Assembly: GCA_018712725.1 (NCBI GenBank)
Contig: DVGN01000051.1
Location: 1 to 51,877 of the forward strand
Direction: 5' to 3'
Length of the DNA: 51,877 bases
Source: Candidatus Scatosoma pullicola
Lineage (GTDB): Bacteria; Bacillota; Clostridia; Christensenellales; Borkfalkiaceae
The translations under genes were made by a program, and so were the position numbers. Positions 17,575 through 31,659 of the stretch are shown piece after piece; position 1 is the first letter of the stretch, and each line of letters begins with the position of its first letter. Below the pieces are notes generated by a model. The model ran no database searches. It was given only the letters and a program-made list of their open reading frames with translations, and was not told the origin of the DNA.

Positions 17575-17763
17575 GATTTTATTATATACCCTTCGGAAAA
17601 AATTGTCAATGATTCGCACGGTCGTATCCTTTCCGTCCGGAAAATATCTTTGCACTTTTTCCCTTTTTCTCTCCCTTTCCGAATTTTATGTCTCTCGCGG
17701 TACTTTCTTTGATAAAATTCTGCAAAAAACCCGAAAAAACGGGGATTTTTCCGTCGATTTCCG

Positions 17764-17792
17764 TTGACTTATATACATATTTATTGTATAAT
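17764..17792 (+). promoter_or_regulatory. Sigma-A promoter for the PadR-coiled-coil gene
   Basis: TTGACT-N17-TATAAT; 7-bp inverted repeats TACATAT/ATATGTA (17774-17802) and CAGACAT/ATGTCTG (17823-17844) around and downstream. Confidence 0.8.
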
Positions 17793-17891
17793 ACTATATG
17801 TAAAATAACGGCGGTATTCCAACAGACATTTCATATTATGTCTGACACAAATCAATGCCCGCCGAAAAATACGAAAGAGGAGGAAAGAACG

Positions 17892-20800
17892 GTGCAGGAC
17901 GAGCAAGAGAAAGTCGATAAACTCGAAGATTTCTCCCTGACGGGCGGAGCGGAAGAACAGGGCATCACCACCATCAGTTCCGATCTCATCCGCGGGCACA
18001 TCAACACGATCATCCTGAGAAGCCTGTACGACGGCGACAAGTACGGCTACGACATCATCAACGAGATCGAAAAGAAGAGCGGCGGGCTGTACACGCTGAA
18101 ACAGCCCACCCTTTACAGCGCGCTCAAACGCCTCGAATCCCTCAAATACGTCGAATCGTATTACGGGGACTTTTCCAACGGCGGCAGGCGCAAATATTTC
18201 CGGCTTACGGAAAAAGGAAAACAGCTTGCCGAACACGATCTCGCCGAATGGGAATATTCGCGCACGGTCATCGACAGCCTCATTTCGGACGGAAACGCCC
18301 ATTACGACTTTTCCTTCATCACGGAAAAGCAGAAGGAGCTGCTCGACATCAAAAAAGCGCTCGCGGCGCGGGAATCGGCGCTCGAAGAAGAGAGAAACGC
18401 CCTCAACAACCTCCGCAACGAATTGCAGCGGGAGCGCTCCCTCCTCTCCGTGCAAAGCTCCTCTTTAAGCACGCAGAAATCCGACTTCAACGAACTCAAA
18501 GAAAAGATCCGCACGCAAAAGGAAGAGCTGGAAGAAAAGGAACGCACGCTCGCCGAAAAGCAGGCGGAAATCGACGCCAAGGAAGCCGAGCTGGACGAAA
18601 AACAACGGGAAATCGCGGCGGCGAAAGAAGAGCTCGAACGCCAGAGGGAAGAGATCGATTCCCTGAAAGAAAAAATCGATTCGCAGCGGGTGCAGATCGA
18701 CGAGAAGATCACCGAACTGGACGAAGTCCGGGCGGAGACCTCCTCCCGCAACGAAGAACTTCTGGAAAAGCAGGAAGCCCTCTCTTCGATGCAGGCGGAA
18801 CTCGACGAAAAACAGGCGAGTCTGGATTCCCTGCAAACCGAATTGGACGAGAAGAGGCAGGAACTCGACGAAGCGCGCGCGGCGCTCGCCGAACGGGAGA
18901 CCGCCCTCTCCGACGCGCTCAACGACTCCGAGCAGATGCAGTCGGGGCTCGCCGAACGGGAAGCCGCCCTGAAAGAGGCGGAAGAGGCGCTGGAAGAAAA
19001 GAAGCGCGCCGCCGAAGAGGCGGAGGAAAAGCTCGCCGCGGCGGAAAAGGACGCCGACGAGCGCAGAGCCGCATTGGAAGAACAGCGCGCGGAATTGGAA
19101 GAAAAGACGCGCACCCTCGACGCCCTCCGGGAAGAACTCGACAAAAAGACGGAGGAAAATTACTCCCTCCTCTCGCAGATCCAATCGGAGAGATCGGAAC
19201 TCGCGGAGGAAAAAGCCCGGATCGCCTTGGAGCGCTCCGATCTCGAATCGCAGCGGGAAGAGAACGAAGAACTCGCGGCGGTGCGCGCCGAACTCGAAGA
19301 GAAAAATGCGCAGATCGAAGAGAAAAACGCCGAACTCGAAGAGAAAAAATCGGACATCGAAACGCTGAGAGGCGCCCTCTCCTCCCACGAAAACGCCCTG
19401 ACCCTCTTGAAGAGCGATCTCGAAAACAAGACCGCCGAACACTATAACCGCTCGGTGGAACTGCGCGCCCAGCAGGCGCAGATCGAAGAACAGCGGGCGA
19501 AGCTGGAGACGGAGAAGCGGGAAGCGGAAGCGCGGGCTTCGGAGCTGGAAGCGCTCAAAGCGCAGCTTTCGGAAAAGGAAGAAGAACTTGCCGAACGGGA
19601 AAAGGCGATCGCCGACCTCAACGAATCGGTGCGCTCTTCGGACGAAAACATGCAGACTGCCCTGTCCGATCTCGAAGCGCGGGAACAGGCTCTGAAAGAA
19701 CGGGAAGAGACGCTCGAAGCGGAAAAGGCGGAATACGAGCGGCTGCGCGGCGAATGGGAACGGGAGCGCAGCGCCTATGACGAAAGCAAAGCCGCCGCAG
19801 ACGAAGAGAGACAAGCCCTCCTTTCCGACCGCGCGGCGCTGGAAGAGAGAGAACGCGCCCTCCGCGATCGGGAAGAGTATCTGGAGACGGAAAAACGCTC
19901 CGTCGAAGAATCGCAGAGAGATCTCGACGAGAAGCGGAAAGATCTCGAAAGGAGAAATTACGAACTGACCGAACGGGAATACACCCTGCAGGAGAGCCAG
20001 AAGACAGTGGAAAGCCAGCGGACGCAGGCGGACACCTCCGCCGCCGACATCCGGCGCATGCAGGAAGAACTCGACGCGCGGCAGAACGATCTCGCGCGCG
20101 GAAAGGAACAGCTTCAGAACGAACTCGTCAGCCTCCGGCAGCAGCAGAAAGATCTCGCCTCCCGGCAAACCATCTACAATCAGCAGCAGCTGGAATTCAT
20201 GACGCAGAAAAACACCCTTTCGGCGCAGCAGTTCGACTTTGCGGACAGGCTCTCCGCGTACAACGCGCAGGTCAAGCAGTTCAACGACGGTCTCGCGCGG
20301 TTCAACGAAGAACAGAACGCCTTCCGCGGCGAAAGGCAGAAGCTCGACGCGGACAAACAGGCGTTCGAAGAAGAGCGGACCAAACTGGAAGCGGACAAAG
20401 CGGAATTCGAAAAGCAAAAGACGGAATTTGAAAAACAGCAGATCGAAACGGAAAAGAAAAAGCTGGAAACGGCAGCCGAGTATCAGGAAAAGAACGCGGA
20501 CATCGACAGACAACTGAACGCGCTCAAAGAAAAGCAGCTCGATCTCGAAAGCCGGGAAAACGCCCTGAACGCGGCGCGGCGCGAATTCAATTCCCGCCGT
20601 TACGCAGAAGAATACGCAGCGGGCAATCCCCCCGTGCAGCCCTATCCCGGGTACGGAGTTCCCTATCCCGCCCCCGCCGGATACCGGGAGGAGGATTACA
20701 GGCGTCCCCTTCCCCAGAATCCGCCGGCGGCACAGTCCTCTTCCGGACAGATCGATCTCGACGACCTGCGCAAGCGGGCGCAGTCGGACGGCATCCGGCT

Positions 20801-21284
20801 GAATACGGCGGGCAGCATGGGCACGGGCGCCAAAGCCAAGGCGGCAGAATCCCCCGCCCCCGTGTACAATAAGGGGCAGACGCTGTTCAAAGCGGCGCTC
20901 ATCACCTTCTGCATCATCCTTGCGGAAAGCCTTGCCATCTTCTTCGTCCGGGATCGGCTGCACATATCCGGACTGTACCCCGCCGTCGGCTGCGGCGTCG
21001 GACTTGCGGCATTCCTGCTCTGCACGGTGCTTTACGCCTGCGGCTACCGCCCGCGGGCAAGGCGGAGCAAACATCCCGGCTATATCTTGAACGCCTCCAT
21101 CCTCTTCGTGATCGGCGTCATCGTCGTCAGCATGGTCGCCGTCTATCTCAAAGCGGACCTGAAACAGCCGGCGGAACTGCTCGCTTACGTCATTCTGCCC
21201 GTCCTCTATCTTCTGAACATCATCCTGTTCTCCGTATTCTTCTATCTGTTCTCCGTCTATCCGAAGAACGGGCTGAGAGAATAA
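17892..21284 (+). CDS. PadR-like winged-helix domain + very long coiled coil + Pro-rich linker + four C-terminal TM helices; GTG start
   Basis: AGAGGAGG 8 nt upstream of GTG at 17892; PadR core IILRSLYDGDKYGYDIINEIEKKSGGLYTLKQPTLYSALKRLESLKYVESYY...GGRRKYFRLTEKGK; heptad-rich E/K/R/Q region; hydrophobic C-term. Confidence 0.88.
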   Translation: MQDEQEKVDKLEDFSLTGGAEEQGITTISSDLIRGHINTIILRSLYDGDKYGYDIINEIEKKSGGLYTLKQPTLYSALKRLESLKYVESYYGDFSNGGRRKYFRLTEKGKQLAEHDLAEWEYSRTVIDSLISDGNAHYDFSFITEKQKELLDIKKALAARESALEEERNALNNLRNELQRERSLLSVQSSSLSTQKSDFNELKEKIRTQKEELEEKERTLAEKQAEIDAKEAELDEKQREIAAAKEELERQREEIDSLKEKIDSQRVQIDEKITELDEVRAETSSRNEELLEKQEALSSMQAELDEKQASLDSLQTELDEKRQELDEARAALAERETALSDALNDSEQMQSGLAEREAALKEAEEALEEKKRAAEEAEEKLAAAEKDADERRAALEEQRAELEEKTRTLDALREELDKKTEENYSLLSQIQSERSELAEEKARIALERSDLESQREENEELAAVRAELEEKNAQIEEKNAELEEKKSDIETLRGALSSHENALTLLKSDLENKTAEHYNRSVELRAQQAQIEEQRAKLETEKREAEARASELEALKAQLSEKEEELAEREKAIADLNESVRSSDENMQTALSDLEAREQALKEREETLEAEKAEYERLRGEWERERSAYDESKAAADEERQALLSDRAALEERERALRDREEYLETEKRSVEESQRDLDEKRKDLERRNYELTEREYTLQESQKTVESQRTQADTSAADIRRMQEELDARQNDLARGKEQLQNELVSLRQQQKDLASRQTIYNQQQLEFMTQKNTLSAQQFDFADRLSAYNAQVKQFNDGLARFNEEQNAFRGERQKLDADKQAFEEERTKLEADKAEFEKQKTEFEKQQIETEKKKLETAAEYQEKNADIDRQLNALKEKQLDLESRENALNAARREFNSRRYAEEYAAGNPPVQPYPGYGVPYPAPAGYREEDYRRPLPQNPPAAQSSSGQIDLDDLRKRAQSDGIRLNTAGSMGTGAKAKAAESPAPVYNKGQTLFKAALITFCIILAESLAIFFVRDRLHISGLYPAVGCGVGLAAFLLCTVLYACGYRPRARRSKHPGYILNASILFVIGVIVVSMVAVYLKADLKQPAELLAYVILPVLYLLNIILFSVFFYLFSVYPKNGLRE

Positions 21285-24427: not shown

Positions 24428-25450
24428 TTATCTGCGCGATCCGATCGGCTCGTAAGCATAAGTGACGCTGCCGTTCTCGTCCGTTTGGGGAATGACCCGC
24501 CAGCTCTGTCTGCCGCCGCCCGTACCGACGGTGAGGCGGATGTATTCCCTGCCCCGCTCCGATTCGCGGTCGAAGGAAAAGCGCTGCGTCTGCCCGTCCT
24601 TATAGGCGGTCATTTCCAGCTCCGTCTCCCCGTCCTCCTCTTCATAGGAGAAGGAGGCGCGTTCCACAGCCCTGCCGCCTTCGTACACCGAATAGCTGTA
24701 AGACTGTTCGCTCTCTCCCCGCTCCGATTCCGTCTCCTGCTCCACCAGCATATAGCGGTTCTCGCCGAGCGTCACGCGGAAGGTCGTCTCGCTCTCCGAT
24801 TCGTCCCCTTCGCTTTCGGCGCTGCGCCTGCCCTGCACGGCATAGTCGACGCCCTCCACCGTCATCACGCCCTCTATGGCGTAATTTTCCTCCCGCTCGT
24901 CGTCGAAACGGTCGTCCCAATCGTCATCGTCGTCGTCATCGTCAAAGTCGGGAATGGCGGTCTGGTTGTAATACATGACGTACTGCGAAGTATTGCCCTG
25001 CATATCCCGCCAGGAAACGGTCATCTTTTCCGCGTACCCCTCCCGATCGGACGCTTCGGCGGTCATGCCGAATCCGCCGTCGCTCAAAAGGCTTTCCACG
25101 AGCGTCATATATCCGTCCAGCTCCGCCTTCGTCTCATCGGGCAAAGCCGCCGTATCCGAAGAGGCGTCTGCGTTTCCGCCCGAAGTCTGTCCGTCCGAAT
25201 TTCCGCCGCCGAGATCGGACGAAGCCGCCCTGACCGAAGAAGGCGCGCCCGAAAGGTCCATGGCGGAGATCAGCATGCCCGCCGAAGCGGCACTGAAACC
25301 GTAGACGGATTCCGCCGTCGTGAAGTCGCCGAACTTTCCGTTCTCAGCGCCTCCTACGCCCCCAAAGCCGCCCGTTTCCGAACAGGCGCCCAAACCGAAG
25401 GTGAGACCGAGTGCCAATGCGGCAGCCGCCGCCGTAATCATTTTTTTCAT
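24428..25450 (-). CDS. Secreted lipoprotein with poly-Asp block; paralogous to the extracytoplasmic part of the 26226-27473 protein
   Basis: Lipobox LTFGLGACSE; shared blocks with 26226-27473 (LVESLLSDG, ENYAI, YSVYEGG, ASAGMLIS/ASVGMLIS); RBS AAGGAG. Confidence 0.85.
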   Translation of the reverse strand: MKKMITAAAAALALGLTFGLGACSETGGFGGVGGAENGKFGDFTTAESVYGFSAASAGMLISAMDLSGAPSSVRAASSDLGGGNSDGQTSGGNADASSDTAALPDETKAELDGYMTLVESLLSDGGFGMTAEASDREGYAEKMTVSWRDMQGNTSQYVMYYNQTAIPDFDDDDDDDDWDDRFDDEREENYAIEGVMTVEGVDYAVQGRRSAESEGDESESETTFRVTLGENRYMLVEQETESERGESEQSYSYSVYEGGRAVERASFSYEEEDGETELEMTAYKDGQTQRFSFDRESERGREYIRLTVGTGGGRQSWRVIPQTDENGSVTYAYEPIGSRR

Positions 25451-25592
25451 CGTAAGTTTCTCCTTGACTTTTATTTTTGTCGGGGGAAGCTCCGGATTTT
25501 TTCCCCTTACACCTTTATAACAATCCCGCCCGAGGATTTTGTTGGTAAAAAAGAAAAAATTTTTTCCGATTTTTTTCCGCAGCCGGAAGTCG

Positions 25593-25622
25593 TTGACAAA
25601 ACGCCCCCTCTTCCTTTATAAT
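25593..25622 (+). promoter_or_regulatory. Sigma-A-like promoter upstream of ECF sigma gene
   Basis: TTGACA-N18-TATAAT. Confidence 0.65.
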
Positions 25623-25701
25623 ATGGATAGAAAAAACAAAAAAATTTCCTTTTTCACCAACAATTTTCCCCCTTTGCGTTGTTAATAGAGTAGGATGGGT
25701 T

Positions 25702-26229
25702 ATGAAACACGATCGACTCGAACAGAAGATAGCCGAGCTGAAAGCCGGGGACGCGCGCGCGTTCGACTTCATTTACGAACGCACCAACCGCTCCGTCTAT
25801 TTTGCCATTTTTTACATCGTGCGGGATAAGATGTACGCCGAAGACCTGTTGCAGGACACCTTCGTCAGGGCGATTTCCTCCCTGCACCAATACGCGCCCG
25901 GCACCAATTTCACCGCCTGGCTGTGCGCCATCGGCAAATCGCTCGCCTTGAACCACCTGAAAAAGTACCGGCGGGAAGTCCCCACCGACTTCGAAGCGGA
26001 CGCCCATAAATTCGGGTCGGGAGAGGCGGACATCCCCTATATCTTCGACCTTGCGGCGCGGGTGCTGACCGAAGACGAATACGAAATCGTCATGCTCTGT
26101 CAGGTCTCCAGATACAAGCGCCGGGAGGTCGCCGAAATGCTCGGCATCCCCATCGGAACGGTCACCTGGAAGAACAACGAAGCTCTGAAAAAGCTGAGAG
26201 CGCATCTCGAAAAGGAGGGCGGCGCATGA
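25702..26229 (+). CDS. ECF-type RNA polymerase sigma factor
   Basis: Region 2: DMYAEDLLQDTFVRAISSLHQY...NFTAWLCAIGKSLALNHLKK; region 4: LTEDEYEIVMLCQVSRYKRREVAEMLGIPIGTVTWKNNEALKKLRAHL. Confidence 0.9.
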   Translation: MKHDRLEQKIAELKAGDARAFDFIYERTNRSVYFAIFYIVRDKMYAEDLLQDTFVRAISSLHQYAPGTNFTAWLCAIGKSLALNHLKKYRREVPTDFEADAHKFGSGEADIPYIFDLAARVLTEDEYEIVMLCQVSRYKRREVAEMLGIPIGTVTWKNNEALKKLRAHLEKEGGA

Positions 26230-27587: not shown

Positions 27588-28592
27588 TCAGGCGTTCTTC
27601 ATGCCCTCTTCGATCGCGACGGCGACCGCGACGGTGGCGCCGACCATGGGGTTGTTGCCCATGCCGATCAAACCCATCATCTCGACGTGCGCGGGAACGG
27701 AGGAAGAGCCCGCGAACTGCGCGTCCGAGTGCATCCTGCCCATCGTATCCGTCATGCCGTAGGACGCGGGGCCCGCCGCCATGTTGTCGGGGTGCAGCGT
27801 TCTGCCCGTGCCGCCGCCGGAAGCGACGGAGAAATACTTCACGCCGTTCTCGTTGCACCACTTCTTATAGGTGCCCGCGACGGGGTGCTGGAAGCGGGTG
27901 GGATTGGTGGAATTGCCCGTGATGGAAACGCCGACCTTTTCCAGCTTCATGATCGCCACGCCTTCGGGAACGTCGTCCGCGCCGTAGCACTTGACCTTCG
28001 CGCGGTCGCCGTCCGAGAACGCCTTCTCGTAAACGACTTTCACCGTTTCGGTGGAATGATCGAATTCCGTCTCCACGAAGGTGAAGCCGTTGATTCTCGA
28101 AATGATATAGGCGGCGTCCTTGCCGAGGCCGTTCAGGATGACCCGAAGGGGCTTCTTGCGGACTTTGTTGGCGTTCTGCGCGATGGAGATGGCGCCTTCC
28201 GCCGCCGCGAAGGATTCGTGCCCCGCGAGGAAGCAGAAGCATTCGGTGTCTTCGGAAAGGAGCATGGCGCCGAGATTGCCGTGGCCGAGACCGACCTGGC
28301 GGTTCTGGGCGACCGAACCGGGAACGCAGAACGCCTGCAGGCCGATGCCGACCGCAGCCGCCGCGTCGGAAGCCTTCTTGCAGCCCTTCTTGATCGCGAT
28401 CGCCGCGCCGACGGTGTACGCCCACACCGCGTTGTCGAAGCAGATGGGCTGAGTGCCGCGGACGATCTTTTCGCAATCGACGCCCTTGGAAAGGCAGATG
28501 TCGCGGCACTCCTCGACGGAGGAGATGCCATATTCCTTCAAAACGCCGTTGATTTTATCGATTCTTCTTTCATAACCTTCAAATAATGACAT
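27588..28592 (-). CDS. GGGtGRT family protein (function unknown)
   Basis: Signature VASGGGTGRTLHPDNMAAGPASYGMTDTMGRMHSDAQ. Confidence 0.85.
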   Translation of the reverse strand: MSLFEGYERRIDKINGVLKEYGISSVEECRDICLSKGVDCEKIVRGTQPICFDNAVWAYTVGAAIAIKKGCKKASDAAAAVGIGLQAFCVPGSVAQNRQVGLGHGNLGAMLLSEDTECFCFLAGHESFAAAEGAISIAQNANKVRKKPLRVILNGLGKDAAYIISRINGFTFVETEFDHSTETVKVVYEKAFSDGDRAKVKCYGADDVPEGVAIMKLEKVGVSITGNSTNPTRFQHPVAGTYKKWCNENGVKYFSVASGGGTGRTLHPDNMAAGPASYGMTDTMGRMHSDAQFAGSSSVPAHVEMMGLIGMGNNPMVGATVAVAVAIEEGMKNA

Positions 28593-30916: not shown

Positions 30917-30959
30917 GCCCCGAAAATCAAGCGTTCCGTCCCTTTTCGGGGCGGTTTTT
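30917..30959. terminator. Terminator-like inverted repeat downstream of sigK
   Basis: CCCCGAAAA...TTTTCGGGG with T-run on + strand, TCTTTTA on - strand. Confidence 0.55.
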
Positions 30960-31659
30960 ATTCGAAAAAATCCTCCGGGCGCAGGCGGGCGCGCAGTTTT
31001 TCGATCGCCCGCTTTTCGATGCGGGATATGTACGAGCGGGAAATTTTCAGCATCCCCGCCACCTCCCGCTGGGGCAGCGGCACCCCGCCTTTCAGCGCAT
31101 ACCGAAGGCAGATGACCGTATACTCCCGATCGCTTAAAATTTTTCGTATCTGGGAAACGAGCTTCTCCCGCTGCACCGACCTCTCCACCTTGTCGAAAAC
31201 GCAGTCCTCTTTTTCAAAGAGCAGATCCATCAGCGTGAGTTCGTTTCCGTCCTTGTCCGTCCCCACCGGCTCGGAAAGGGAACAGTTGTTTCTGTGCTTC
31301 TTATTCGCGCGGATGAGCATGAGGATTTCGTTTTCGATACACCGCGCCGTGTACGTCGCCAATGCCGTCCCGTGCCCCGGCTCGTAGGTATTGATCGCCT
31401 TGATGAGGCCGATGCTCCCCACCGAGATGAGGTCGTCCGTCTCCGCCGCGCCCGTATATTTTTTGACAATATGCGCCACCAAACGCATATTGTGCTTTAC
31501 GAGAATGTCCTTTGCCGCCTTGTCCCCCTTCGCCGCAAGGGCGAGATACTTTTCCTCCTCCTCTTTGGGAAGGGGCTTCGGAAAGGAATTTTTTCCCCCG
31601 ATCGTCCCCGTGAAGAATACGATCTTGCCGAGAATCGCCCACAAAAAATCCAAAAACAT
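30958..31659 (-). CDS. sigK: Sporulation mother-cell sigma factor SigK (uninterrupted)
   Basis: FPKPLPKEEEEKYLALAAKGDKAAKDILVKHNMRLVAHIVKKY...LATYTARCIENEILMLIRANKK...ISRSYISRIEKRAIEKL. Confidence 0.9.
   Translation of the reverse strand: MFLDFLWAILGKIVFFTGTIGGKNSFPKPLPKEEEEKYLALAAKGDKAAKDILVKHNMRLVAHIVKKYTGAAETDDLISVGSIGLIKAINTYEPGHGTALATYTARCIENEILMLIRANKKHRNNCSLSEPVGTDKDGNELTLMDLLFEKEDCVFDKVERSVQREKLVSQIRKILSDREYTVICLRYALKGGVPLPQREVAGMLKISRSYISRIEKRAIEKLRARLRPEDFFE

Follow-up and report, generated by a model that had tools for sequence, protein, structure and literature searches.

A conserved pair of candidate ECF sigma factor promoters in a three-gene module of uncultured gut Clostridia

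What reads two matching motifs that face outwards from the intergenic region between a sigma factor operon and a divergent lipoprotein gene, and how far does the control that they suggest extend? The question arises from a 51,877-nucleotide stretch of DNA of Candidatus Scatosoma pullicola (contig DVGN01000051.1; hereafter, the window), for which the original prediction, made from the letters alone, proposed −35 and −10 elements of an ECF sigma factor in both directions. We followed it through the window, its genome and the related loci of other genomes.

The locus and its motif pair

The sigma protein consists of sigma regions 2 and 4 alone, as is characteristic of ECF (group IV) factors (Pfam Sigma70_r2, E = 4.8e-13; Sigma70_r4_2, E = 4.9e-6), scores above the cutoff of the NCBIfam sigma70-ECF model (63.8 versus 42.9 bits) and has the ECF factors SigW and SigH among its PDB relatives (Table 1). 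The gene that overlaps its stop codon, which keeps its place after sigma in orthologs, encodes a presumed anti-sigma factor with two short cytoplasmic helices, one transmembrane helix (residues 53–79), a beta-rich ectodomain and an acidic tail (AlphaFold2 model, pLDDT 78). The mature part of the divergently encoded lipoprotein shares 39% identity with this ectodomain over 293 columns (BLASTP, E = 4e-36), and its Cys23 is invariant in a 51-row alignment. The lipoprotein was modelled as a long beta meander (AlphaFold2, pLDDT 79), for which Foldseek returned no confident match of any kind in the PDB (best E = 0.15), RseB/LolA-like sensor lipoproteins included. Searches with the lipoprotein and ectodomain sequences against Pfam, NCBIfam and the PDB gave no consistent family.

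Elsewhere in the window, a 1,198-aa open reading frame (17688–21284, + strand) unusually joins a PadR DNA-binding domain (E = 3.3e-16) to a very long region resembling coiled coil and then to hydrophobic segments at the C terminus. A gene for a GGGtGRT family protein (PF14057, E = 4e-197) lies just past the anti-sigma gene (27588–28592, − strand), and a second sigma-70 family gene with regions 2 and 4 (30958–31659, − strand) resembles, by eye, those of sporulation sigma factors.

Both copies of the predicted motif, ACCAACAA-N15-TTGTTA, proved exact, each facing a gene: the + strand copy reads ACCAACAATTTTCCCCCTTTGCGTTGTTA (25656–25684) and the − strand copy ACCAACAAAATCCTCGGGCGGGATTGTTA (25546–25518). 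With up to two mismatches allowed, chance alone would give 0.07 matches in the window, and the exact form occurs just these two times in the whole 1.99-Mb assembly (~90% complete). Of 400 resampled intergenic sequences, 12 contained an 8 + 6 pair of some kind with an equal gap in the two directions. Judged from the window locus alone, the pair is thus only moderately unusual and related loci were needed; we regard conservation across relatives, a matter of comparative sequence analysis, as the decisive evidence for the motif.

Table 1 Features of the sigma factor locus in the window
Feature	Position	Strand	Basis
Predicted −35 box, ECF promoter of the sigma operon, ACCAACAA	25656..25663	+	Exact match and ortholog conservation
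Predicted −10 region, ECF promoter of the sigma operon, TTGTTAATAG	25679..25688	+	Exact match and ortholog conservation
Predicted −35 box, ECF promoter of the lipoprotein gene, ACCAACAA	25539..25546	−	Exact match and ortholog conservation
Predicted −10 and start region, lipoprotein promoter, TTGTTATAAAGGTG	25510..25523	−	Conservation across the 61 lipoprotein promoters aligned
P1, housekeeping-type promoter ahead of the sigma operon, TTGACA-N18-TATAAT (12/12)	25593..25622	+	Consensus match
ECF sigma factor (175 aa) composed of regions 2 and 4	25702..26229	+	Pfam, NCBIfam and PDB relatives
Presumed anti-sigma factor, 415 aa	26226..27473	+	Open reading frame overlapping the sigma stop codon
Lipoprotein, 340 aa, lipobox LGAC at Cys23	24428..25450	−	Paralog of the anti-sigma ectodomain

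Conservation of the motif in orthologous loci

Eighty orthologous loci were recovered from a genome collection; they come from uncultured Clostridia, among them Candidatus Borkfalkia, Coproplasma and Gallimonas. Lack of the paired motif in such loci had been named beforehand as a refutation of the prediction; the motif is present just upstream of the sigma gene in 81 of 81 loci (the orthologs and the window) and ahead of the lipoprotein gene in every region scored. CCAACAA is retained letter for letter at 75 of the 80 sigma genes scored, and all 81 loci have, by sequence, the AAC-type −35 and GT-type −10 of a candidate autoregulated promoter. Boxes of these types fit the general ECF promoter pattern, AAC/CGT (PMC8103513), which counts in favour of a promoter.

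The TGTT end lies 14–21 nt before the sigma ATG in 72 of the 80 loci scored and 34–42 nt before it in the remaining eight, for some of which the aligned start codon is perhaps not the real one. In the window, TTGTTA ends 17 nt ahead of the ATG, as the original prediction had stated; it had treated this short distance as a caveat, but the range kept by most orthologs makes it a conserved feature. The very short leader that would result was counted against a promoter, as was the resemblance of TGTTATAAT, in a few orthologs, to a housekeeping −10. Farther from the gene, the same upstream region holds a housekeeping-like promoter of at least 10/12 at 60 of the 81 sigma loci (versus 18 of 810 Markov resamples), and the separate TTGACA-N18-TATAAT promoter predicted between the two units of the window is real, with a full match (P1; Table 1).

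The lipoprotein gene is divergent in about 39 loci; in about 30 it is codirectional and lies downstream. Its upstream region contains CCAACAA and GTT in all 68 cases scored (relaxed score), divergent or codirectional alike; a strict pattern is found in 61 of 69, the misses having CCAACAA with CGTTAT, GGTTAT or similar. The motif lies mostly 45–70 nt ahead of the gene start, and the 61 aligned promoters give the consensus CCAACAA-N15/16-TGTTATATA(A/G)GTG, with a T-rich stretch ahead. The predicted spacing and right element therefore hold for the window but not as general rules: relatives have either 14 or 15 nt from CAACAA to TTGTT, and TTGTTA is part of the longer conserved stretch seen before lipoprotein genes. 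The motif precedes the lipoprotein gene in six same-family relatives with the order lipoprotein–sigma–anti-sigma, and it is kept where that gene lies 2.5–3.2 kb from the anti-sigma gene (L155 and L156) or on another contig, ~27 kb from the nearer contig end (L157, genome G118). In L075, L079 and L110, two tandem copies stand ~80–90 nt apart upstream of the lipoprotein gene.

Promoter or operator, and for which sigma factor

AACAA and TTGTT are inverted repeats, and the motif could instead be an operator (AACAA-N15-TTGTT) at which a dimeric regulator controls both units, an alternative that the original prediction had itself raised. Some support comes from the sigma-side spacers of the orthologs (the window copy is not among them), which have extra self-complementarity between −35 and −10 (z = 4.1, from non-independent sites); it may be a leader hairpin in the P1 transcript. 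We consider an operator highly improbable. Conservation is asymmetric (left, CCAACAA; right, TGTT(A/T)(A/T)TA, rarely TTGTTGG), spacer length differs by one base among relatives, extra complementarity is absent from the lipoprotein side (z = 0.4) and the motif is always oriented toward the gene. In seven loci from more distant families (L176–L182), moreover, the left arm is GGYAAAA and the right arm TTGTT, so that no such palindrome is left. The symmetric half-sites and fixed spacing of a palindromic operator were not found, and it was rejected as a candidate. Asymmetric halves, variable spacing, a lipoprotein side without complementarity and a distant form without a palindrome together favour a promoter.

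Such a promoter might be read by another sigma factor of the cell, as sequence alone cannot name a promoter's reader and the genome has further sigma genes (for example, that at 30958–31659). We give this reading scarcely any probability, given that the motif tracks the module, being in excess neither in genomes that lack the module nor outside it in genomes that have it, stays with the lipoprotein gene when that gene is unlinked, and co-diverges with the recognition helix of the module's own sigma factor. In the seven distant loci, both promoters have TTGGCAAAA or TTGGTAAAA, followed by TTGTT; that is, the left box has changed from CCAACAA to TTGGYAAAA at both promoters together, and TTGTT has been retained. 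At residues 158–160 of the recognition helix, the CCAACAA group mostly has NNE and the TTGGYAAAA group Y/L, K/Q/S and K/S/Q/T. On the sigma tree, this co-divergence amounts to as few as two changes and is therefore strong in pattern, not in independent events. Same-family relatives with Y at position 158 still use CCAACAA, which makes residues 159–160 the better candidates. Natural co-variation of a sigma factor and its −35 box is directly testable.

Directional promoter-like elements stand at both genes and, in these alignments, co-diverge with sigma. We conclude that the motifs are very probably two promoters read by the adjacent gene's product, an ECF sigma factor of the envelope-stress type. 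The predicted −35/−10 elements, with autoregulation and control of the lipoprotein gene, receive strong support from comparative evidence. This module would give uncultured gut Clostridia a class of promoter with sharp definition and a minimal circuit of two promoters.

Extent of the control

A genome-wide motif search had been suggested as a way to define a regulon. A scan of 201 genomes of the family with the pattern CCAACAAN{14,16}TGTTDTA, with reversed-pattern controls, gave 99 matches, of which 74 lie no more than 3 kb from one of the module's genes. Away from the module, there was no excess in module-positive genomes (10 matches versus 12 for the controls), nor was there any in module-negative genomes (15 versus 30); scans of the window's own genome added nothing convincing outside the module. 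Of nine apparent extra matches at the loci, six proved to be sites of the module itself and three the sigma-side site read from the opposite strand. A wide regulon was rejected on these own-genome and 201-genome scans, sites outside the three-gene module being at or below control level. The strict scan pattern overlooks some of the module's known sites, so there may be weak distant targets, and the incompleteness of the genome means that further targets could be missing from it. On present sequences, the circuit appears to be local feedback over the three-gene module.

Sensor domains and the role of the lipoprotein

Members of the ectodomain's protein family are present in 38 of 200 genomes from the order, spread over several families. 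RsgI_M (PF23750) replaces the beta ectodomain in the anti-sigma factors of six more distant relatives (L147, L149 and L179–L182), and the first ~84 anti-sigma residues are homologous to those of the RsgI_M-bearing anti-sigma factors from four of these six (hhalign, 98.3%). The window anti-sigma factor and 50 aligned orthologs gave no match to RsgI_M, and the window protein does not qualify as an RsgI family member. Domain comparison thus indicates sensor exchange within one sigma family, between RsgI_M and a lipoprotein-like beta domain; the sigma tree requires at least two sensor changes, with some relatives that have an INPS-like motif left unlabelled by the simple pattern used. Autocleavage of RsgI has been described (PMC12203970).

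From these comparisons we infer sigma binding, transcription starts, anti-sigma activity and a role for the lipoprotein, as follows. Region 4 of sigma would read CCAACAA as the −35 box and region 2 (T)TGTTAT as the −10 box. The housekeeping promoter P1 would supply basal sigma and anti-sigma. Once released by the membrane anti-sigma factor, sigma would transcribe the lipoprotein gene in one direction and its own operon in the other, the latter from the promoter immediately ahead of the start codon; the operon's leader, only ~10–12 nt long, would still have a ribosome-binding site. The product would be a membrane-anchored relative of the anti-sigma sensor domain, and because of this relationship the only dedicated output detected for the circuit probably takes part in the circuit's own signal reception: the lipoprotein would feed back on the sensor or share a ligand with it.

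Alternatively, the lipoprotein may be an effector and no regulator of the anti-sigma factor, such as a surface protein with the same envelope ligand as the sensor, a role that is compatible with the promoter reading and to which we give a little less than an even chance. The lipoprotein stays in relatives whose anti-sigma ectodomain is RsgI_M, and its retention beside such sensors argues for a role independent of a matching sensor; yet with no excess of other sigma targets, the effector programme would be one of a single protein. As for a part in signal reception, we regard it as tentative, and unlikely as a whole, that sigma mainly controls one lipoprotein acting on sigma's own anti-sigma factor through like-with-like contact of the beta domain that the two share, and that anti-sigma sensors in this order were exchanged at least twice between the RsgI_M type and a copy of the circuit's output protein. 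A literature search of limited reach, and hence weak as evidence, found no earlier case of a lipoprotein with paralogy to the sensor of an anti-sigma factor. A sensor interchangeable with RsgI_M and an output protein related to the sensor domain would together allow one to study the evolution of anti-sigma sensors and any feedback of targets on them.

Comparison with characterized sigma factor systems

The hallmarks of ECF systems are a two-domain sigma factor, a linked membrane anti-sigma factor and an autoregulated promoter with an AAC-type −35 (PMC8103513). The module resembles the SigW–RsiW and RpoE–RseA type in its two-domain sigma factor, its linked, presumed membrane anti-sigma factor and its predicted autoregulated promoter with such a −35. 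It differs in its candidate −35 (CCAACAA) and −10 (TTGTTAT), in having no target excess beyond the operon and one lipoprotein gene, and in the cytoplasmic part of the window anti-sigma factor (~50 aa, modelled as two helices). This part we take to be closer in form to class II domains such as CnrY.

In EcfG–NepR–PhyR of Alphaproteobacteria, two divergent units at one locus are both transcribed from promoters of the locus-encoded sigma factor (PMC8103513). The module has the same arrangement, with predicted promoters; its divergent gene, however, encodes a lipoprotein paralogous to the anti-sigma ectodomain, and that of the EcfG locus a response regulator, the sigma factor there directing a general stress response. 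Likeness to SigI–RsgI of Bacilli and Clostridia lies in those relatives of the module whose anti-sigma factors have an RsgI_M ectodomain with an INPS/INPA motif; by contrast, the window anti-sigma factor lacks RsgI_M and the window sigma factor matches general ECF models.

In the SigE–CseA system of Streptomyces, a lipoprotein gene belongs to the ECF sigma locus and its product tunes the sigma factor, and a two-component system takes the place of an anti-sigma factor; we know of no paralogy there between the lipoprotein and an anti-sigma sensor. The module likewise has a lipoprotein gene in an ECF sigma locus, but it differs in having a presumed anti-sigma factor.
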